Shown here piece after piece: positions 51,519 through 61,842 of a stretch of DNA of 64,000 bases; the stretch's first letter is position 1, and every line of letters starts with the position of its first letter. Made by a program: the position numbers and the translations under genes. The notes beneath the pieces are model-generated. The model searched no databases and was not told the DNA's origin. It saw only the letters and a program-made list of their open reading frames with translations. The DNA is from Pleurocapsaceae cyanobacterium CSU_1_1 (lineage in GTDB: Bacteria; Cyanobacteriota; Cyanobacteriia; Cyanobacteriales; Xenococcaceae), in contig JAAUOU010000004.1 of the NCBI GenBank assembly GCA_012034765.1, forward strand, positions 1 through 64,000, written 5' to 3'.

Positions 51519-51905
51519 TTACCAAATACGATTAACTAAATATTGATCGAAAACCTTATCAATACTAATTAAATCAATATTCTCGACTATAGATTGAGCA
51601 ATTATTAGCCTGTCAAAAGGATCTTTATGATGATCAGCTAGATTAGTAAGAGCGTAAATATGGTTGACTTCAATTGACAAAAGATTAAGACTATTAACCT
51701 CTTGCTGTTTTTGTACCAATTCTGATAAGCCAACATCTAAATCGAGCTTCCCTAATTGAGATTTAATTTGCATTTCCCAAATGCTTGCTAAACTTAAAAA
51801 CAAAGTATTATCCACATTAGATACCAACTTTTCTACTTGAGAAGACAAACGTTTAGGACTAATTGACCACCAAATAAAGACATGAGTATCAAGTAATAGA
51901 TTCAT
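51519..51905 (-). CDS. VapC-type PIN-domain toxin
   Basis: A 128-residue PIN-domain ribonuclease. Acidic active-site residues are D6 (LLLDTHVFIWW), E44 (SIWEMQIK), D95/D98 (HHKDPFDRLIIAQS) and D116 (LISIDKVFDQY). The ATG at 51905 overlaps the antitoxin TGA in an ATGA junction, so the two are translationally coupled. It is expected to cleave RNA when freed from the DUF2281 partner. Confidence 0.88.
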   Translation of the reverse strand: MNLLLDTHVFIWWSISPKRLSSQVEKLVSNVDNTLFLSLASIWEMQIKSQLGKLDLDVGLSELVQKQQEVNSLNLLSIEVNHIYALTNLADHHKDPFDRLIIAQSIVENIDLISIDKVFDQYLVNRIW

Positions 51906-52138
51906 AATTGACCAGACCAAAAATCATCTGGTAGAGGTTCGTTAAAATCCTCACTAATTTTACCTTTTCCCTCAAATAATCCCATGATACGAGATGGTTT
52001 TGAGATCATAGATTGAGAACCTTGATATCTACTAGCTAAAAACTCAATAAAATCAAATACTTGCTGTTGCTGTTCTAGGGGTAGCGATTTGAGTTTATTC
52101 AATGTTGAATTATTTAATTCAGTTACATTAGAGGACAT
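51902..52138 (-). CDS. DUF2281 antitoxin partner of the PIN toxin
   Basis: A 78-residue protein with the N-terminal helix LKSLPLEQQQQVFDFIEFLA typical of DUF2281, and an acidic C-terminus (GLFEGKGKISEDFNEPLPDD) ending in FW, the part that usually occupies the toxin active site. It is immediately upstream of, and overlaps, the PIN toxin gene. It would neutralise VapC and probably autoregulate the pair. Confidence 0.85.
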   Translation of the reverse strand: MSSNVTELNNSTLNKLKSLPLEQQQQVFDFIEFLASRYQGSQSMISKPSRIMGLFEGKGKISEDFNEPLPDDFWSGQL

Positions 52139-52298
52139 TAGACTAATTTACTTAGAGACTGTTTGTTATTAAAATTAAATAATAGCTTAAATGTATTATA
52201 AATCTATAACTAAGCAACTATTTGCTCTTCAGGCAAGCGATTAAATTGAGTAACACTAAGTGATTAGCGATCGCTTAGTAACTCTAAGATTTTAAAAG

Positions 52299-52330
52299 CG
52301 CGATCGCATTGAGTAGAAATTGGAGTAAGG
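52299..52330. repeat. Second copy of the 32-bp repeat of 51462-51493
   Basis: CGCGATCGCATTGAGTAGAA starts this copy, which differs from the first by one base and lies just downstream of hepT, between the two toxin-antitoxin modules. Its final AGTAAGG is shared with the duplicated block that begins at 52324. Confidence 0.9.
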
Positions 52331-52355
52331 CGATCGCTAGACCAAATTAATATAT

Positions 52356-52697
52356 TTATTCAGTGGCAACAATTATCATTTCAATTTGTTGAATTAAGAG
52401 AGCAATTGATCTAGTTGCAACATTCCACACTGCATCCAAATCCAGATCATCATAATTATGAATCAAGATATCTCGCATTCCTGCCATCTGTCGCCAAGGA
52501 ATTTCAGGATAATCTACCCTAAATTGTTGAGATAAACGTTTGGTTGCTTCTCCAATAATTTCTAACTGTCTAATTACAGCTGATTGACGCATCAAATCAG
52601 ACTCAAACATATTTCGGTTAACAGGCTCAATAAATTGCTGTATCAGCTTTGCTGCAATTAAAATATCAGTAATAGAACTAAGATCCCGAGGCTGCAT
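52356..52697 (-). CDS. hepT: HepT-like HEPN toxin (DUF86)
   Basis: A 113-residue all-helical protein with the HEPN ribonuclease motif R75-x4-H80-x-Y82 (MRDILIHNYDDLDLDAVW) and the upstream DUF86 helix (IRQLEIIGEATKRLSQQF). It overlaps the end of mntA by 20 bp. In characterised pairs the toxin is silenced when MntA AMPylates the tyrosine of RX4HXY (family knowledge); that tyrosine is present here. Intact. Confidence 0.9.
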   Translation of the reverse strand: MQPRDLSSITDILIAAKLIQQFIEPVNRNMFESDLMRQSAVIRQLEIIGEATKRLSQQFRVDYPEIPWRQMAGMRDILIHNYDDLDLDAVWNVATRSIALLIQQIEMIIVATE

Positions 52698-53031
52698 AAA
52701 TTACTTTGGCTGAATCAAGAATGTGATTTTTACGAAGATGATTCTGGCTTTGTTCAATTCCTTTTTTACTTACTAGATCAACTTTTCTCCCAAAAATCGC
52801 TTTCAACTCATCTTGCATATCCACATAGTCAAATAAAGTCCAAGAATGATCTGATGAGAAACTAACCAACACATCAATATCACTATTAGGTTTAAAATCG
52901 CTTCTTAATACTGAACCAAACAATGCAAATTCCTGAATTTTCCAACGTTCACAAAATTCAGTAATTTTGTCTAGAGGAAGTTCAATATTTTTAATAGCCA
53001 TTCTATTCTGAGTTACAATCTCTGAATTCAT
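52678..53031 (-). CDS. mntA: MntA-like minimal nucleotidyltransferase antitoxin
   Basis: A 117-residue protein when started at the ATG at 53031; an ATG at 53001 is possible. It carries the nucleotidyltransferase signature GSX10DXD: G39-S40 ... D51-I-D53 in LFGSVLRSDFKPNSDIDVLV. It would AMPylate HepT. The C-terminus ends KNHILDSAKVIYAASG. A collapsed second copy of parts of this locus lies upstream at 53292-53518. Confidence 0.88.
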   Translation of the reverse strand: MNSEIVTQNRMAIKNIELPLDKITEFCERWKIQEFALFGSVLRSDFKPNSDIDVLVSFSSDHSWTLFDYVDMQDELKAIFGRKVDLVSKKGIEQSQNHLRKNHILDSAKVIYAASGS

Positions 53032-53264
53032 TGTAGCAGAAGGGCGCAATTAGCTTTCTTCCCTCTCTAAAAGAGAGCGTTTCTAAACAATATTCAATTA
53101 CGAACACAATAAGCTCAAAAGTTAGGCAATCAATTTAAATTAGGTGTGATCGCATCTTCCTCATAAATAATTTTCATCGAGCGATCTCTATGTTCTTCGG
53201 CTATCTGCTCAGTAATCTTTGTAGAAAATGCCAATGATGCATCTGATTTTTCCAGAGATCGCTA

Positions 53265-53695: not shown

Positions 53696-53774
53696 AAACT
53701 ATTCCAAGATAACCTGCAACGGCTTGGAATCGCTTAGGATCAAAACTTATAGTAAAGTTGGATCTCAATACCGT

Positions 53775-54284
53775 ATGCTTGATCGAGTCGTCAGACGATT
53801 ACTGTTAACGGTGACTCTGGTTAGCGTTTGCAGTAGTTGTAGTGGTAGTTTATTAACGCAGCCAGAGATTATTCCTGGAGGGATAAACAGTAATTCTCCC
53901 GAAGAATATCCGTCCTATAGCCAAGATAGTCGTTATTTAGCTTTTGCATCAGATAGGCGTGGTCAAAGAGATATTTTTCTCTACGATCTTCAGGCAAAAC
54001 GTTTGATTTCTTTACCCAATCTTAATCGTCGAGATTCAACACAAGATCAACCTTCTCTAAGCTCAAATGGTCGCTATATTGCTTATGTATCCACAGAAAG
54101 GGGAAAAAGTGATATTTTTGTGTACGATCGCCAACAGCAAAAAACCGAATTGTTAACGGTTAATGTCAAAGGCTCTGCCCAGCAGCCTACTATTAGTGGT
54201 GATGGTAGTCAAGTTGCTTTTCAAGCGAGTCAGTTGGGACAGTGGAAAATTGTCATTGTGAAGCGTAAAGTTGATCGTAATTAA
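53775..54284 (+). CDS. TolB/WD40-like beta-propeller lipoprotein
   Basis: 169 residues from the ATG at 53775. The N-terminal LLLTVTLVSVCSSC resembles a lipoprotein signal, although the lipobox is imperfect. Three TolB-like (PD40) blades follow: EEYPSYSQDSRYLAFASDRR, DQPSLSSNGRYIAYVSTERG and QQPTISGDGSQVAFQASQLG. The family occurs as periplasmic propellers with or without partners. It converges with the zorC-like gene, the stop codons being 56 bp apart. Membership in the defence operon is unlikely because of the opposite strand. Confidence 0.75.
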   Translation: MLDRVVRRLLLTVTLVSVCSSCSGSLLTQPEIIPGGINSNSPEEYPSYSQDSRYLAFASDRRGQRDIFLYDLQAKRLISLPNLNRRDSTQDQPSLSSNGRYIAYVSTERGKSDIFVYDRQQQKTELLTVNVKGSAQQPTISGDGSQVAFQASQLGQWKIVIVKRKVDRN

Positions 54285-54340
54285 CCTAACTAAGTTTGTA
54301 ATCTTGAATATCTGGAATTATATTTTTTTATCTCGCTAGT

Positions 54341-55813
54341 TTAGGATCTTCTAGCTTCTCGTTCTAATCTAGCTATATCTTCTCTCCAATACCCTAAACT
54401 GTGATCGCGCTTCCTCCGATTTTCGTCTGAAGGTTTAGGCAGTCCTGTTTGAGTATTGTATTTATTGTATTGATAAGACAAACCTTTAAAGCGTTCAGTG
54501 CCTTGATTGGGCAAAATATTTTTGTGTCTAAGCCATTGTTCACAGAAATATTGCCAACAAAATACATGATCATGAATTGGATTATTTAAGTCTAAACAAC
54601 GAAGCTTTTTAATCGATAATTGAGAGTTAAATAATTGCTGTTCAATTTCAGCATTTTTAAGAAAAATACGAGTTTCGCTACCATTACCGCGAAAAAATTC
54701 AACTATAAACCAATTGCCAAAATCAAAAATACATACTTCTGTTGGATCGCTACCATCTTCTGATAAAGTGCTGACATCTTGATTACTAAGATGATTACCT
54801 AAAATACTAACTGAACTTTCAGGTAATAAAATCCGAATGCGTTCAAAGCGATCGCTGTAGTTTGACCAAAATCCACTACGGCTTTCTAATTTGTTATGTT
54901 CCCAAGATTCTAGATGTACTCGATTTAAAATTAAACTAACTAATTGTTGGAAATCTTGATAGCTGACTGCACCAAGCCATTTTCGCATTGCTGATTTAGC
55001 TTCTAAAGATAGTTCATTCCAATGAGAGTTAATTACAGAAGAACTATAATATTGACGCAACCAATTAATTAATTCTGGATGTTCTGCACCAAGTTTTGGA
55101 TCGACTCTTATCAACAATTGTTCTACAGCTTTTATTTGCTGTGTTGTTTTCATTTCTTTTAAACATTGCAACAGCCATTCAACTTGTTGGTGATTAAAAG
55201 TAGCAATTGAATAAAATTCGGTAACAATGTTATCTAGAGTTTTCTCTAAGATTGAGGCTTTGCCTGGAAGCTGATATTTTTGGAACAGTTGATTAGGCGT
55301 AATAAGTTTTTTTAGACATAATATTACTAATTTTAATTCTGGTTCTGGGGTTATAAGAAATTGAACTATTTCTAACTTTTCTTTGTCTATTTTATTTTGA
55401 GGACAGAAAGATAAGTAAGTTTTTGTTAAAGATGAAGCCAGTATTTCTTTACCATAATAATTAAGAACTAAATTCCAAAATAATCTTTGTTTTAACCAAG
55501 TGTTTTGTTCTGCTGCTTTCCAAATTGCTTTGGATGTAAATATACTTCTATTTAAATTTTTAGTATCCCATTTTTCTTTATTGTAAAGACAGTGAAGCCA
55601 TTCCAAAATAGTCAAATTTTTATCATTACCGTTTTCGATATCTCTAACAATCTCATCTAGATTAGATCGAGAGATAAATATACTGGGAGTAACACCAACA
55701 GGTAAACAAGGAGGTTGTAAAGCACTATTATTATCTCCTGCTAATTTTATTAGAGCATCAGCATTAATTTCTGGAAGTTGTGGTAAATGTATTTTACAAA
55801 ATTGAATATTCAT
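54341..55813 (-). CDS. zorC: ZorC-like protein with EH-signature domain
   Basis: A 490-residue, mostly helical protein whose C-terminal third matches the EH-signature domain of Zorya ZorC: SRSGFWSNYSDRFERIRIL, then E372 in NWFIVEFFRGN, and H414/H416 with W420 in NPIHDHVFCWQYFCEQWL. Its ATG overlaps the zorB TGA (ATGA). In type I Zorya, ZorC is a cytosolic partner thought to bind DNA and to act with ZorD (family knowledge). Here no zorD follows; the operon ends at this gene. The name rests on the motif and the zorAB context. Confidence 0.78.
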   Translation of the reverse strand: MNIQFCKIHLPQLPEINADALIKLAGDNNSALQPPCLPVGVTPSIFISRSNLDEIVRDIENGNDKNLTILEWLHCLYNKEKWDTKNLNRSIFTSKAIWKAAEQNTWLKQRLFWNLVLNYYGKEILASSLTKTYLSFCPQNKIDKEKLEIVQFLITPEPELKLVILCLKKLITPNQLFQKYQLPGKASILEKTLDNIVTEFYSIATFNHQQVEWLLQCLKEMKTTQQIKAVEQLLIRVDPKLGAEHPELINWLRQYYSSSVINSHWNELSLEAKSAMRKWLGAVSYQDFQQLVSLILNRVHLESWEHNKLESRSGFWSNYSDRFERIRILLPESSVSILGNHLSNQDVSTLSEDGSDPTEVCIFDFGNWFIVEFFRGNGSETRIFLKNAEIEQQLFNSQLSIKKLRCLDLNNPIHDHVFCWQYFCEQWLRHKNILPNQGTERFKGLSYQYNKYNTQTGLPKPSDENRRKRDHSLGYWREDIARLEREARRS

Positions 55814-56490
55814 TTAGTAATAGATTTGTCTACAGTATTAGCTCTTTTTAGTAACTCGCCAAAGTCTTCTCGTCGAAATTGAAAGCGAAAAACAACCTTG
55901 CGATCGCCTGAATTATCCTTGCTCTGATTTGCATCTATTTCACCTCTTCCAGATGTCATCATTTTTTGCTTGAACTTTTGTTTTGTATCAAAGTTTATTT
56001 GTTGAGAAAAAATATAATTGGATACTGATAAAGCACGTCTCAAGCTTAACTCCATGTTTCCTTGATCTGAACCTTTAGAACTGGTATGACCTTCAATAAC
56101 AACACGAGTAATTTGGCGATCAAATAATTCATCAGAGAAAATGACATTGCTATAAACGGGTATAAATTCTTTGAGAAACTGCTTTCCTGCGGGTTTTAAT
56201 TCTGCACTTCCCTCATCAAACAAAATGCTATCTCCAATAGTGACACCGCCTGTTTCTGGATCGACTTCAAATGCATATTTATCTCCAAGTTTTTGCTGAA
56301 GAGCTTGTTGAATCGCAATCGGAAGTTTCTTGTATAATTCTTGATATTCCTGAAGCTGAACTTGTACGACAATAAATAACAAAGCAAAAAACATTAACAA
56401 TCCAGACATCAAATCGCTGATAGATAACCAAATACCTGAATTATCTTCCTCAACTTCTATATCTGGTTCAAAATCTTCAAAACTGTTCAT
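55810..56490 (-). CDS. zorB: ZorB-like MotB/OmpA protein
   Basis: 226 residues. The cytoplasmic N-terminus is short and acidic. The single membrane helix at about residues 22-44 has the proton-carrying aspartate D26 (WLSISDLMSGLLMFFALLFI). A periplasmic OmpA-type peptidoglycan-binding domain follows at about residues 85-210 (VVIEGHTSSKGSDQGNMELS, SLRRALSVSNYI). Together with ZorA it would form a stator-like, proton-driven complex anchored to the cell wall. The gene starts 2 bp after the zorA stop and overlaps zorC by four bases. Confidence 0.88.
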   Translation of the reverse strand: MNSFEDFEPDIEVEEDNSGIWLSISDLMSGLLMFFALLFIVVQVQLQEYQELYKKLPIAIQQALQQKLGDKYAFEVDPETGGVTIGDSILFDEGSAELKPAGKQFLKEFIPVYSNVIFSDELFDRQITRVVIEGHTSSKGSDQGNMELSLRRALSVSNYIFSQQINFDTKQKFKQKMMTSGRGEIDANQSKDNSGDRKVVFRFQFRREDFGELLKRANTVDKSITK

Positions 56491-56492
56491 GT

Positions 56493-58619
56493 TTAGTTAC
56501 CTCCATTGCTGTTTTTTAGTTCTTTAGCAGCAGTAACCAAGAAATCAGCCGTATTCATCAAACCGTGGGAGGTTTCATTCAATTTGCTACAAACTTCAGC
56601 AGCAGCTTTATCTGCATCCTGTATACTCTTGGTATAAGTTTCATTAGCTTGTTTTAGGTAATTATTTAGTTGTTCGTTGCCAGTAACTAGAGCTTCATTA
56701 AATTGCTCGGTCATATTTTGATAGCTGTGTTCGACGCGATGAGCTTCATTACCAATAGTGCGAGCTAATTCTTGCAGTTGACCTAAACGTTCGCTAGAAG
56801 TCATACCCATTGCGCTAGCTAAAGTATTTACAGTTTTGACTGTTTCCCCAATGCGATCTAAACTTTGGTCTACTTGTACGGTCATTTCTTTCCTCTGCGT
56901 TGCTTCTTCACTAAAGGTTTGCTGTAGATTGACTACTACTCCTGCTAATCCTTCTCTTTGTTTTCCTAATGTGTCGTTGAGTAGATTGTTTTGCTGAGTA
57001 AAGAAATCTTGTAACGCTGCTTGATAGTCGAGGCGAAACTGTTCTAGTTCCTGTTGCACTGTAAGACGAGTATTTTGCAGCATTCCGTCGATACTGTTCA
57101 ATGTACCGAGGAAATTATCTTTAGCTTCACTCATTAATCCTGAAGCTTCTTTTCCTACTGTTGTCAGCGTATGAGACTGATTCAAGAAGGCTTCATTAGC
57201 TTTAACCAAAACACTTTCGGTAGAAGTTTGAACATCCTGCAACATTTGCCTTTGTTGTTCGGCTTGGGTATTGAGTGCTGCTTGTAAATCTTCCCTAATT
57301 CCTCTAAAAGTTTGAGAAGCTTGGCTTGCGCTGGCTTCAAAAGCAGTTCGTTGTGCTTCCATTCCTGTAATGCTTTGGTTTACTGCTTCTTTAATTTCTA
57401 CAGCAACTTGTTCCATTACCCCTTGGGTATCGGTACGAAATTGACCGAGAATAGATTGTAGATTAGCAGCAAATTCTTGTAGACGAGTCAAAGTATCTTG
57501 TTGAAAACTCTGAATGGTTTGTACCGCACCAGCCAAACTAGTACTAATACCGCCTAATTCATTTTTCAAATCTGTTACTGCTGCGGATGCTTCTTTAGTT
57601 AATTCGGCACTTTGGTCTAATCGAGTAACTACAGGTTCAATTAGCTCATTACGTAGTTGTTTGACTAAACTTTCTACAGTTTGTCCTTGGCTTTCTTGGA
57701 GTTCTCGAAGTTGTTTTATCTCCTCAGAAATAGGATTAATTAAAACTGTGAAATTATCGCTTGTTGCAGACGCGATCGCATTAGGAGTTAAATTAGATAA
57801 ACCTGATGTATTTTCTACAAGCTGCCCGATTTTCTCTAGAGTTTTTAATTCTTGAATAAAAAGGCTATCTGGTGATGCGATCGCACTTTTAATAGCATTC
57901 GCAATTACATCAGCATTAAAACCAGATAAATTATCAGCCACACTCTGAAGTGTTTTAGCAACTTCTATATTTCCTTCGTTATCCAAACGAGATAAAAGAC
58001 GATTAGGATTTTCTAAAAAAGCAATATTGCTTAATTCTTTACGAAACTTATTACGAATTCCAGTACGCTTTCTTTCCCCCCAAGATAAATATAAAATGAA
58101 AAAAATAGCAGCACCCATACCAAACAGAGAAGTCACAAAAGCTGTTTTCATTCCTGCTAGTAAATTTTGACTAGCTGTTATAAGTTGTTGGGTTTCACTC
58201 AGATTTCCTAAATCTATTCCTTGTAAGCCTAAGAAAATACCAGTAAAAGTTCCTAGAATACCAATTGCGGTTAATAAAGCAGGAGCAAAACTAACAGGAC
58301 TTCGAGGTACGGGTTTTCCTAAAATAAATGGATAGGAAAGTAAAATAAAATCCCCATTATTATCTTGTTCTGGCTTGAAAGCTAATGAAGTTGATTCTCC
58401 TTTGAGATGTTGAGCAAGCCATCTAATAATTTCAGTTGATTCTTTTTGAGCTTGTATAAAATTATTCTTTTGCTTTTGTTTGTATGCTGTTAACTCTTTA
58501 ATAGATTTATCAACTACGACAAAATCTCTTTTTTGATAATCACTTGAGAATTTTTGCTCCTTGATACCAATCCAAATTGCTATTCCAACAACAGCTAAAC
58601 AAAATATAGTATTAATCAT
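56493..58619 (-). CDS. zorA: ZorA-like MotA/TolQ/ExbB channel with a long coiled-coil tail
   Basis: 708 residues. Membrane segments lie at about 3-19, 109-132 (FAPALLTAIGILGTFTGIFL) and 157-180 (KTAFVTSLFGMGAAIFFIL); the second and third are the MotA/ExbB channel helices. From about residue 200 to the end runs a glutamine-rich coiled coil of over 500 residues, recalling methyl-accepting protein tails. This long cytoplasmic tail distinguishes ZorA from flagellar MotA. It probably assembles as a pentamer with a ZorB dimer (family knowledge). A strong AAGGAGG precedes the ATG. Confidence 0.88.
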   Translation of the reverse strand: MINTIFCLAVVGIAIWIGIKEQKFSSDYQKRDFVVVDKSIKELTAYKQKQKNNFIQAQKESTEIIRWLAQHLKGESTSLAFKPEQDNNGDFILLSYPFILGKPVPRSPVSFAPALLTAIGILGTFTGIFLGLQGIDLGNLSETQQLITASQNLLAGMKTAFVTSLFGMGAAIFFILYLSWGERKRTGIRNKFRKELSNIAFLENPNRLLSRLDNEGNIEVAKTLQSVADNLSGFNADVIANAIKSAIASPDSLFIQELKTLEKIGQLVENTSGLSNLTPNAIASATSDNFTVLINPISEEIKQLRELQESQGQTVESLVKQLRNELIEPVVTRLDQSAELTKEASAAVTDLKNELGGISTSLAGAVQTIQSFQQDTLTRLQEFAANLQSILGQFRTDTQGVMEQVAVEIKEAVNQSITGMEAQRTAFEASASQASQTFRGIREDLQAALNTQAEQQRQMLQDVQTSTESVLVKANEAFLNQSHTLTTVGKEASGLMSEAKDNFLGTLNSIDGMLQNTRLTVQQELEQFRLDYQAALQDFFTQQNNLLNDTLGKQREGLAGVVVNLQQTFSEEATQRKEMTVQVDQSLDRIGETVKTVNTLASAMGMTSSERLGQLQELARTIGNEAHRVEHSYQNMTEQFNEALVTGNEQLNNYLKQANETYTKSIQDADKAAAEVCSKLNETSHGLMNTADFLVTAAKELKNSNGGN

Positions 58620-58628
58620 TATTTATTA

Positions 58629-58635
58629 CCTCCTT
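58629..58635 (-). promoter_or_regulatory. Strong Shine-Dalgarno of zorA
   Basis: On the minus strand AAGGAGG stands nine bases before the zorA ATG at 58619. Most genes in the window lack so good a match. It lies inside the 22-bp gap after the small upstream gene and fixes the zorA start. Confidence 0.8.
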
Positions 58636-58641
58636 TCAAAA

Positions 58642-58986
58642 TTAGCTTTTAATAAATTGTTGTAACTCTTGTACTGACAAATTTTTTTGTGCAACTCTTA
58701 CAGGCATATGTGCAGCATCTTTTCTACCATTTATTGATACCATCAACTGCAAACCATAAACTGGTTCGTCATAGTCTACATTTACATTGGTATCCGTCAT
58801 TAAATAAACTAGTTCTGGTGCATAACTACGCAAAAGTCTGAGCTGCAAACGTGCTTTTAAATCTCGTAGAGAATTAGCTAAATAGTTATCAGCACAATCA
58901 AATAAATCTTGTGCTTTTTTCCAAGCATAATTTACAGCTATTATTTCTGAGACTAGCTGTTCAATAGAGGGATCAAATAAATCCAT
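58642..58986 (-). CDS. Small unrecognised protein at the head of the Zorya-like operon
   Basis: 114 residues if started at the ATG at 58986 (MDLFDPSIEQLVSEIIAVNY); the frame is open to 59031, giving 129. I do not recognise a family. Residues 1-60 look helical and contain a leucine- and arginine-rich stretch (NSLRDLKARLQLRLLRSYAP); the second half looks like a small beta sheet (VYGLQLMVSING). There is no signal peptide and no membrane helix. It is 22 bp upstream of zorA on the same strand, so it is almost certainly part of the operon. It could be a regulator, an adaptor or the missing effector. Confidence 0.65.
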   Translation of the reverse strand: MDLFDPSIEQLVSEIIAVNYAWKKAQDLFDCADNYLANSLRDLKARLQLRLLRSYAPELVYLMTDTNVNVDYDEPVYGLQLMVSINGRKDAAHMPVRVAQKNLSVQELQQFIKS

Positions 58987-59068
58987 TGTTTTGTTTGAGC
59001 TTTTTTTGATGGTTATACATATAGTTCCCATCTAACTCAAAAAATTTCATCGCTTCTTTTTCAAGCGA

Positions 59069-60055
59069 TTACAACTTCTCTCTCTTTGATTGGCGATCGC
59101 TTTTCTTTTGATATTCTTGACGACGTAAACGCAACTGAATATCTTCCAGTAGCTGCCGATTAACCCCCATTAAGTCGGCGATTAACCCAAATATCCACAG
59201 CTGAACGCCAATGAGAATTAACATAGCAGCGAGAATTAGACTAGGTACACGGGGTTTAGCAGGATCGTCGCCAATAATTCCCCAAAATAATAATAACCAA
59301 CGACAGCAGAGTAAAAATCCTAAACTAAAGGGAACACTGCCCAACATCATAAAGAACCTTAGCGGACGATAAGTCATAAAGATCCGCACAATGGTCAAGA
59401 TGGAGTGCTGAACATAAGCAAAGATATTTTTGACCAATCGAGAAGGACGCAGAAAGCCGTTGGTATGAATGGGGACAGAGGTGATAATTAAACCCTTTTG
59501 ACCAGCCTGGATAATAGTTTCTAGGGTATAAGTATATTCATTAAAAACATTCAGCCTTAAAGCAGCCTCTCTACTTATGGCGCGAAAACCGCTAGGAGCA
59601 TCAGGAATCTCGGTTTGACTAGCCAGACGGACGACAAAACTACCGAAATTTTGCAGCAGTTTTTTGAGCGGGGAAAAATGTTTAATTGATTGAATTGGTC
59701 TTGCACCAATCACGATCTGGGCATTTCCTGCTAAGATTGGCGCAATTAGTTTAGGGATATCGGCTGCACAATATTGATTATCGGCATCGGTATTGACAAT
59801 AATATCTGCACCCGCCTCTAGACAAGCTTCGATTCCTGCCATAAAGCCTTTTGCCAGACCTTGGTTTGATTGTAAATTAACAATATGGTCAACACCACAA
59901 GCTTGAGCTACTTCTAAAGTGCGATCGCGACTACCATCATTAATAATCAGCCATTCTACCTGATCGATGCCAGGTAACTGCCGAGGAAGTTCCGATAAGG
60001 TTAAACCTAAAGTTGCCTCCTCGTTATAGCAGGGAATTTGAATAATCAGTTTCAT
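59069..60055 (-). CDS. Polyprenyl-phosphate-type glycosyltransferase (GT2) with two membrane helices
   Basis: A 328-residue DPM1/GtrB-like enzyme. The GT-A domain has IIQIPCYNEEATLGLTLSEL, LIINDGSRDRTLEVAQ and the metal-binding IIVNTDADNQYCAADI, with the acceptor motif PDAPSGFRAISREA. C-terminal membrane helices are at about residues 228-255 and 268-295 (LILAAMLILIGVQLWIFGLI). It would transfer a sugar from a nucleotide donor to a lipid phosphate at the inner face of the plasma membrane. It is 38-83 bp upstream of the Zorya-like operon, on the same strand, but unrelated in role. Confidence 0.88.
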   Translation of the reverse strand: MKLIIQIPCYNEEATLGLTLSELPRQLPGIDQVEWLIINDGSRDRTLEVAQACGVDHIVNLQSNQGLAKGFMAGIEACLEAGADIIVNTDADNQYCAADIPKLIAPILAGNAQIVIGARPIQSIKHFSPLKKLLQNFGSFVVRLASQTEIPDAPSGFRAISREAALRLNVFNEYTYTLETIIQAGQKGLIITSVPIHTNGFLRPSRLVKNIFAYVQHSILTIVRIFMTYRPLRFFMMLGSVPFSLGFLLCCRWLLLFWGIIGDDPAKPRVPSLILAAMLILIGVQLWIFGLIADLMGVNRQLLEDIQLRLRRQEYQKKSDRQSKREKL

Positions 60056-60111: not shown

Positions 60112-60208
60112 ATTGCTCATTGCTCATTGCTCATTGCTCATTGCTCATTGCTCATTGCTCACTGTTCATTACTCATTGCTCATTGCTCACTGTTCATTGC
60201 TCATTGCT
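60112..60208. repeat. Tandem heptanucleotide repeat (ATTGCTC, about 14 units with variants)
   Basis: About 14 units of ATTGCTC with ACTGTTC and ATTACTC variants. The motif is the complement of the GAGCAAT array at 26134. Its right end overlaps the end of the peptide-binding lipoprotein gene: the terminal codons and the TGA stop of that gene are made of repeat. Confidence 0.95.
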
Positions 60209-61842
60209 ACTGCGCTTTATTGTCCAAAAAGGAAAGGTTTGACTGGGATTGATGACTACACCGTTAAGATCATTTTGAGCAAAGGCATAATCTTTAGTCT
60301 GCCAGAGGGGAATATAAGGCACATCCTGACTCATTACTTCCTGCAATTCAACTAAGATTGCTTGGCGTTTAGCCACATCTTGTTCCTGTCGAGATTGCTC
60401 GATTAGCTGGTTAGCGCGATCGCTATAATAGAATGAACCACGACTTTGAGCGGCACCCGATTTGCAACCAGTCTTGACTGAACCTTGGCTACAGCTAAGA
60501 AAAGGCTGAAGATAATTATCAGGATCGAGAAAGTCTGGATACCAATCGACTAAAGCAGCAGGATATATTCCTTGACTGAGATTGCTAAAAAGGAAGCCGA
60601 CTCGACACTCTTGGGAACAAACTGAATAATTCCTCCTAGTTCGCTTGAACCATAGGCTTTAATCGTTTCTGCCACAATCCCTCTAGTAATTGACCCACTA
60701 GGATACCAAATTTCCACGACCGCTGGATTTTGCGCGGAATACCCTGCTTTAGTGAGTAATTCTTTGGCTTTAGCCGTATTTGCTTCGCCATATAGTTTTT
60801 TGAATGTCGGTTCATAGGTATCGAATGCTGTGGGTACAAGACTATAAATCGGTTCAGCCTGTCCTTTTAAGACTCTTTCATTGATTAAACCACGATTGAT
60901 GCTCGCGGCGATCGCCTGACGTACTTCTGGCTGATTAAGGGGTTTTTGCTGTAAATTCAAGACTAGGTAATTAACCACTGTTCCCGAACCTTCAATAACC
61001 TTATGCTCTGTTTTCTGTTCTAGTAGGCTTTCTATTTGCTGGGGATCGAGAGACTGATAAGCCACGTCTACCGCTTTTGTCTCAAAGCTGTTAAACAAAT
61101 TAGCTGAATTTCCGCCATAAACCTGTAAATTAATGCCTTGATTAGCAGGTGCTTCACCCCAATAATTAGAATTGCGATCGAGGCTGATAGAATCGCTTTT
61201 AAACTGATTCAGCTTATATCTTCCTGTCCCGATCAGCTTGTTAGGATTAAATGCTCCCGCACCTATTTTGTAAGCCTGGGGAGATACAGCACAAGCACCA
61301 GGAAAAGCTAGTAAGGCAGGAAAAGCAGCAAAGGGTTGCTTCAGGGTAATTTTAAGCTCGTATTCCCCTGTTACCTCAACTGACTTAATCACATCTCCCA
61401 AGAGAAAAGAAGGTTTTCCGCCATTGTCGATAAAACGTTGCAGAGAAAACTTCATTGCCTTAGCGTTAAATGCTGCACCATCATGAAAAGTCACCCCTGT
61501 TCTCAGAGGAATGGTATAAGTCAAACCAGCTTTGTCGATAGTTGGCATAGCAGTTGCCAAAAGTGGTTTTATATTTGTAGTACCAACTTCGTAGGTATAA
61601 AGACTTTCTGCCACATTATAGATAATATTTAACCCTGCAAGCTCGTAGTTATCAGCGGGATCGAGAGTGCGTGGCTTTAAGGTTGTCCCGACAGAAATGC
61701 GATTACTATCAATTGGGTTTGTATCCGACTTGTTTTGACTGTTGCAGCCTATCGCTAAAATAAAACAAAAAGAAAATAAAATTAGATATTTACTGATTTT
61801 TCTCAGTCGTTGCCCAAGGGCAGGAAATCGATTAGTACTCAT
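60194..61842 (-). CDS. Peptide/nickel-type ABC transporter substrate-binding lipoprotein (split by a frameshift)
   Basis: An N-terminal lipoprotein signal ends in the lipobox LAIGC (about residue 33). The SBP family 5 pattern follows: RTLDPADNYELAGLNIIYNV, LTYTIPLRTGVTFHDGAAFN, LIGTGRYKLNQF and EVRQAIAASINRGLINE. The frame fails at A5 60587-60591 (T5 on the coding strand); one more T gives SFFSNLSQGIYPAALVDWYP and continues through QEVMSQDVPYIPLWQTKDY to a TGA at 60194. About 549 residues when joined. The last residues (SNEQ) derive from the heptad array. It binds oligopeptides or similar solutes outside the plasma membrane; the fused ATPase at 31864 is of the same transporter class. Confidence 0.88.

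Follow-up and report, generated by a model that had tools for sequence, protein, structure and literature searches.

A zorD-less, Zorya-like operon of a small gene, zorA, zorB and zorC in a Pleurocapsaceae cyanobacterium and its relatives

The operon described here most probably (with a probability of about 0.6) represents a complete Zorya subtype without ZorD, in which a small gene precedes zorA, zorB and zorC and the effector arm consists of ZorC and the small protein. According to the current view of the Zorya types studied so far, the motor of types I and II acts through a final nuclease (ZorD or ZorE). If a type recurs in which both are missing and the motor residues and ZorC are combined with a fixed small partner, it would reveal what the motor and ZorC can do in their absence. 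The four-gene set would also make a simple test object for an ion-driven motor that stops phage, and it brings cyanobacteria into view for Zorya. No description of this four-gene type was found in searches of open-licence papers.

Organization of the operon

The window (the whole stretch of 64,000 nucleotides of Pleurocapsaceae cyanobacterium CSU_1_1 DNA that was analysed) comes from a 4.6-Mb assembly of 196 contigs. The operon and its surroundings comprise the following features:

53724–54284, convergent to the operon: PD40/TolB-like gene, beyond zorC
54285–59096, no strand: stretch missing in the sister genomes G005 and G002; apart from the final codons of the GT2 frame it contains the four genes only
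54341–55813, minus strand: zorC, EH-signature protein, 490 aa (PDLC00618, 634 bits; PF15611, 89 bits)
55810–56490, minus strand: zorB, MotB/OmpA-like subunit, 226 aa, channel Asp26 (PDLC00609, 261 bits)
56493–58619, minus strand: zorA, MotA-like motor subunit, 708 aa with a 523-residue cytoplasmic tail (PDLC00597, 891 bits)
58642–58986, minus strand: small-protein gene, 114 aa (129 aa from the alternative start at 59031)
59049–59069, minus strand: terminator-like hairpin 3' of GT2 and ahead of the small gene; weak, consensus match only
59069–60055: GT2 gene, on the other flank, at the small-gene side

The genes are read on the minus strand from 58986 to 54341 in the order small protein, ZorA, ZorB, ZorC, and are separated by a gap of 22 bp, a gap of 2 bp and an overlap of 4 bp, respectively. 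The original prediction had described exactly this: a small frame, a MotA-like protein with three membrane segments and a tail of more than 500 residues, a MotB/OmpA protein with channel D26 and a 490-residue protein with the EH pattern E372/H414-H416/W420, tightly packed on one strand and bounded by a convergent TolB gene and a GT2 gene. The genes, sizes, spacings and both flanking genes agree with this description. The hairpin is weak evidence, because five terminator-like sites occur in 4.9 kb as compared with 2.5 ± 1.7 in shuffled sequences.

Two toxin-antitoxin-like pairs (PIN domain with DUF2281, HepT-like with nucleotidyltransferase) are located near the operon at 51519–53049. On the other side, at 60194–61842, an SBP_bac_5 gene is apparently split into a 430-aa frame (60550–61842) and a C-terminal part in another frame (60194–60376); in relatives it is a single longer frame.

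Motor subunits and ZorC

Three hydrophobic segments (residues 1–19, 114–132 and 160–178) precede the tail of ZorA, in agreement with the predicted topology; ZorB has one such segment (24–42) and ZorC has none. A search against Zorya profiles, proposed as a check together with the original prediction, assigned the three proteins to the PADLOC models ZorA1, ZorB1 and ZorC1, and the scores of the Zorya models on the window proteins are far above those of the general MotAB/OmpA models. All three models are filed by PADLOC under type I, thus relatives of the window ZorA, ZorB and ZorC are already present in that library. The OmpA domain of ZorB is recognized by PF00691 (55 bits).

The residues expected of an ion motor are conserved. 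ZorB has Asp at the channel position 26 in all 24 rows of the four-gene type and in all 11 rows of other Zorya ZorB proteins, and R152 is likewise kept in 24/24 rows of the four-gene type. In ZorA, T124 is found in 67 of 69 rows, T163 also in 67 (the remaining two carry Ser) and S164 in all of them, the 69 rows including repeats of some loci. In the type I motor of known structure, this Asp of ZorB is packed against a ring of Ser/Thr residues from ZorA (PMC11890865). The EH pattern of ZorC was borne out by an alignment of 33 rows, in which E372, D415 and H416 are invariant and H414 and W420 are conserved in at least 90%.

The structure of ZorC was predicted with pLDDT 85.8 and pTM 0.65. The solved ZorC 8r68 was the sole match of this model in the PDB at E≤0.001 (Foldseek E 1.1e-4), with a modest TM-score of 0.39/0.47; VIA-align superimposed 346 residues with Z 13.5 and rmsd 7.2, the next row having Z 7.2. 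The link to 8r68 rests on the predicted model, because the sequence profile of ZorC finds nothing in the PDB below E 0.35. The model indicates that the window ZorC shares the fold of the type I ZorC. The dN/dS values are 0.12–0.23 for zorA (five pairs), 0.08–0.22 for zorB (five pairs), and 0.29 and 0.35 for zorC (two pairs), and the parts of the operon look functional.

The small protein

The 114-aa protein is slightly acidic (12 K+R, 15 D+E) and contains no membrane segment. It has no match at E≤1 among the PADLOC and NCBIfam models, and its two weak Pfam matches are below the cut-off (best E 0.12). Phage records contained no match, nor did viral contigs scanned with one peptide pattern, and among plasmids there was one match, in Nostoc HK-01. 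The residues I15, N19, K23, K44, Q48, H93 and P95 are invariant, and dN/dS of 0.12–0.37 in seven (overlapping) pairs indicates that the small gene is under purifying selection.

A confident model built from 37 sequences (pLDDT 90.6, pTM 0.84) is predicted to consist of two long helices, three strands and two short helices. It gave no match at E≤0.001 in the PDB (best E 1.5) or among viral models (best E 0.3), and the sequence profile found nothing in the PDB below E 0.13. The rows returned by VIA-align (best Z 7.7: 6vwl_W, rmsd 2.8 over 54 aligned residues; 5npl_A, rmsd 1.2 over 49) mostly cover the helical hairpin (model residues 1–59), which is a common arrangement. The lack of a structural match to this predicted model does not show that the fold is new.

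Recurrence of the four-gene set

The occurrence of the set was surveyed in 85 loci of cyanobacteria and marine gammaproteobacteria. Same-contig repeats (L063, L064, L065, L066, L068, L074, L114) were excluded from the table and near-copies were retained (e.g. L002/L106, L041/L051, and L081 with the G025 contig), so the loci are not independent. All four genes are present in 59 of the 85 loci, 55 of them in the order small-A-B-C and 4 in the order A-B-C-small; of the rest, some run into contig ends, some are broken or partial, and two (L058 and L116, counted within the 85) are unlabelled. Three A-B-C-small rows form one clade (100/99) in the ZorB tree, and the small gene has thus probably changed its place once and then stayed linked.

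Among 100 genomes, the source genome included, zorC was found in 27, the small gene in 23 and both in 22. The single genome with the small gene and without zorC (G025) has a match spanning just 70 model positions. Five genomes have zorC only: G004 carries a 45-residue remnant of zorC with stops, G027 has no zorA or zorB within 20 kb of zorC, the zorC match of G049 is limited to residues 2–231, a short small-gene-like start runs into repeats in G065 (as read by eye), and G079 has an additional reading frame between zorA and zorB. Broken copies occur in G006, G008 and G062.

A genome-wide contig scan with the small protein gave 64 loci, mostly cyanobacterial judging from their titles; eight belong to Vibrio, Shewanella, Pseudoalteromonas and Ferrimonas, and one is a short contig titled Tatlockia sp. 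(L095). The scan used two peptide patterns derived from cyanobacterial rows, so that it may miss more distant relatives. In 50 four-gene loci the distances of the small protein correlate with those of ZorA (r 0.93), ZorC (0.92) and ZorB (0.88), as compared with permutation maxima of up to 0.33. This points to joint inheritance of the genes rather than to contact of the proteins, and it may reflect shared descent only.

Absence of ZorD, ZorE, ZorF and ZorG

No zorD, zorE, zorF or zorG adjoins the four window genes, as had been claimed originally. The models of ZorF (DUF3348) and ZorG (DUF2894) match none of the four window proteins at E≤1, and the flanks are GT2 and PD40. ZorE was absent from the source genome at E≤1e-8, and among the relatives it gave partial matches only, in 19 of 100 genomes and with at most 61 bits.

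No full ZorD was found in the source genome with two ZorD models, which matched there a single SNF2 protein on contig C172, in its helicase part only. PDLC00631 matches 98 of 100 relatives regardless of whether they carry zorC, and the listed matches are confined to positions 344–948 of 1071. When PDLC00630 was run on 25 of the 64 small-gene genomes, its matches lay on the SNF2 core and did not exceed 146 bits, and four genomes had nothing at E≤1e-10. As a control, a search of 274 gammaproteobacterial genomes at E≤1e-70 returned five ZorDs, and 1008, 977 and 626 bits were the three highest scores. The small protein has no counterpart at E≤0.1 in the loci of these real ZorDs, and three of the five loci (L140–L142) are plain A-B-C-D. 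A profile built from the five ZorDs detected no true ZorD over the 85 loci, in 62 of which zorC is present and the sequence extends 3 kb or more past the last zor gene; it found SNF2 cores only, in L065 and L102. The neighbourhood survey, proposed as a second check together with the original prediction, shows a recurring small gene and true zorD in none of the loci. Both a zorD just outside a misassembled junction and a zorD regularly following zorC in close relatives, named beforehand as evidence against the prediction, were sought and not found.

Several candidates were rejected. The helicase encoded downstream of zorC on L002, the Nostoc HK-01 plasmid, resembled ZorD at first sight. PADLOC ranks it as DpdE/DrmD, its neighbour is DrmMI-like, the best 25 of its 54 PADLOC matches include no ZorD model, and the five-ZorD profile is silent at E≤1e-5. 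A ZorD acting in trans was sought with PDLC00630 and PDLC00631, and the widespread matches sit on the SNF2 core. The match of PDLC00626 ('ZorC', 22 bits) at G000:C23 lies in a long frame that looks sensor-like when read by eye, and was taken as chance.

Two warnings for annotation follow: the type I models match the four-gene type despite the missing zorD, and a common SNF2 protein can be mistaken for ZorD. This common cyanobacterial protein (G000:C172:15978-17348 and 97 other genomes) scores 369 bits against PDLC00631 in the source genome.

Relation to the known Zorya types

A ZorB tree of 37 rows has a branch (99/97) that separates all 26 rows of the four-gene type from the ABCD loci, from type II and from the second motors found in Vibrio and Ferrimonas; the tree is unrooted and long branches meet at the separating branch. 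The ZorC proteins are very distant as well. At E≤0.1 the profile of the four-gene-type ZorC finds none of the ZorC proteins encoded in ABCD loci, and a profile-profile comparison relates the two weakly (probability 4.2, E 0.0098). ZorC of the PDLC00618 type was found in one of 369 gammaproteobacterial genomes, which is the centre genome itself.

With type I (ZorABCD) the window system shares the ZorA/ZorB motor, the ZorC fold (8r68) and the matches to the PADLOC type I models. It differs in lacking ZorD, in having a ZorC of a very distant group and an extra small protein, and in its separate ZorB clade. The Serratia type I system loses protection on removal of any component, ZorD included (PMC11890865). 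ZorABC alone is thus insufficient there, and the four-gene type must either act differently or borrow an enzyme. Type II (ZorABE) and type III (ZorABFG) have the ZorAB motor in common with the window operon; in contrast to type II, ZorE is found neither beside the operon nor in the source genome, and in contrast to type III, none of the four window proteins matches a ZorF or ZorG model. The 5:2 motors of the flagellar, Tol and Ton systems belong to motility or uptake operons without ZorC, whereas here zorC is linked and the Zorya models score highest. Kiwa (KwaAB) offers an analogy only, its proteins being unrelated: as described, a membrane sensor with a DNA-binding partner stops phage without cutting (PMC12904381). 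Judging from the profile matches, the window system is a Zorya by its motor and ZorC, which has neither the ZorD of type I, an SNF2 helicase carrying an Mrr-like nuclease, nor the ZorE of type II, an HNH nickase, and no ZorF or ZorG in the operon.

Site of the operon

The two genomes with the closest GT2 genes (97% and 94%) have GT2 and PD40 next to each other, with 59 and 13 bp between them. Their sequence matches the window up to 54284/54283 and again from 59108/59097. Since the flanks are adjacent in both sisters, the extra 4.8 kb corresponds to the four genes, which here form a separable unit. A search for repeats within the edges of this insert gave none on either side. It is possible that the unit was lost from both sister genomes instead of being gained in the source genome.

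Among the relatives zorC is patchy and occurs at different sites. In 13–15 loci, mostly titled Nostoc (e.g. L076, L088, L096, L103 and L110), the downstream neighbours are the same and the site is steady. These shared neighbours are steadier than is usual for a mobile defence gene and count against free mobility.

Alternative explanations

The original prediction had left the choice between a new subtype without zorD and a decayed type I system. The first part stands, with the four genes together in 59/85 loci, one ZorB clade and a unit at the site. The second does not: in canonical zorABCD loci the small gene is missing and ZorC is very distant. Loss of zorD from a type I system would fit the broken copies seen among the relatives (G006, G062, G008), but the window genes are intact and appear to be under purifying selection, true zorD is found in none of the surveyed loci, the clade lies apart from zorABCD, and the four genes differ from the sister genomes as one unit at the site; we consider decay highly improbable. 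Somewhat less improbable, though still quite unlikely, is a cyanobacterial envelope or housekeeping motor module with no role in defence. The steady neighbours in the Nostoc-type group and the rarity of known defence company in the cyanobacterial loci examined are in line with it, whereas the patchy zorC (27/100), the broken copies, the differing sites, the plasmid copy, the site that is empty in sister genomes and a ZorC fold known from Zorya argue against it.

The remaining explanations retain a Zorya. The ordinary chromosomal SNF2 helicase of the host, recruited by ZorC and the small protein, might be borrowed in place of ZorD, and a protein matching the ZorD helicase core is indeed available in 98/100 relatives. 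Its occurrence is, however, independent of the presence of zorC, the listed matches leave the parts of ZorD beyond the core unmatched, and four gammaproteobacterial small-gene genomes have no PDLC00630 match at E≤1e-10, so this borrowing is unlikely. Alternatively, the small protein might be a new kind of nuclease or toxic enzyme that the motor activates, and thus itself the effector: its gene is the sole extra one, it is nearly always present, and its invariant residues include the polar N19, K23, K44, Q48 and H93. Yet it is a slightly acidic protein of 114 aa with no nuclease-family match and no solved fold at E≤0.001, and the cutting parts of types I and II are larger proteins, which makes an effector of this kind rather unlikely.

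Proposed mechanism

The preferred reading remains the complete ZorD-less subtype, for which defence, envelope sensing and motor signalling are inferred by analogy with the studied Zorya types. ZorA and ZorB would form a 5:2 ion motor that is anchored to peptidoglycan and extends a long tail into the cytoplasm. An infecting phage would disturb the envelope and start the motor, and the ZorA tail would relay the signal to a soluble arm at the site of injection. This arm would consist of ZorC (its helical part and the EH domain) and the 114-aa protein as a fixed partner, in place of the ZorD helicase-nuclease. The small protein, in our judgement an adaptor or regulator rather than an enzyme, would most likely act between the ZorA tail and ZorC. 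ZorC could then block the incoming DNA itself or pass it to a host nuclease.

More tentatively, and with rather less confidence than the reading above, the 4.8-kb four-gene unit may be a fourth kind of Zorya that has no dedicated helicase or nuclease. Its motor would act through ZorC and a 114-aa protein without a known fold match, and phage DNA would be stopped without a Zorya nuclease. If this is true, the pairing with type II in Vibrio and the multi-motor clusters described below would be cases of the unit combined with other Zorya modules.

Neighbours and combined loci

In some loci the neighbours look defensive (DrmD/DpdE- and DrmMI-like genes, type II Zorya, hsdR), while known defence company is rare in the cyanobacterial loci examined. 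On the Nostoc HK-01 plasmid the four genes lie 0.4 kb from the DpdE/DrmD-like helicase gene and the DrmMI-like gene. A type II Zorya (ZorA2 951, ZorB2 345 and ZorE2 577 bits) ends 22 bp ahead of the small gene in Vibrio sp. RE88, where an hsdR-like gene follows zorC; V. jasicida has the same layout, PADLOC having been run on the RE88 locus (L118) only. No second motor adjoins the four genes in Shewanella (L117). Four loci of Vibrio and Ferrimonas contain, after zorC, another ZorA-like gene, two additional genes of ZorB type and a gene for a 321–324-aa protein, which has no PADLOC or Pfam match as tested on L122. The coordinates of these combined loci are:

L118 6337–15095 (Vibrio sp. RE88): zorA2-zorB2-zorE2, then small-zorA-zorB-zorC
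L119 6388–15095 (V. jasicida): the same order
L122 9995–19624, L124 9995–19358, L125 9995–19511 and L126 3908–13378: eight-gene multi-motor Zorya clusters

ZorC is longer in three loci, with 672–677 aa (L118 13062–15095, L119 13062–15095, L120 13039–15057). In L118 the model covers residues 42–480 of this protein, and about 200 C-terminal residues have no Pfam match at E≤0.001. Two tandem zorB genes are present in four otherwise complete cyanobacterial small-zorABC operons (L072, L077, L079 and L087).
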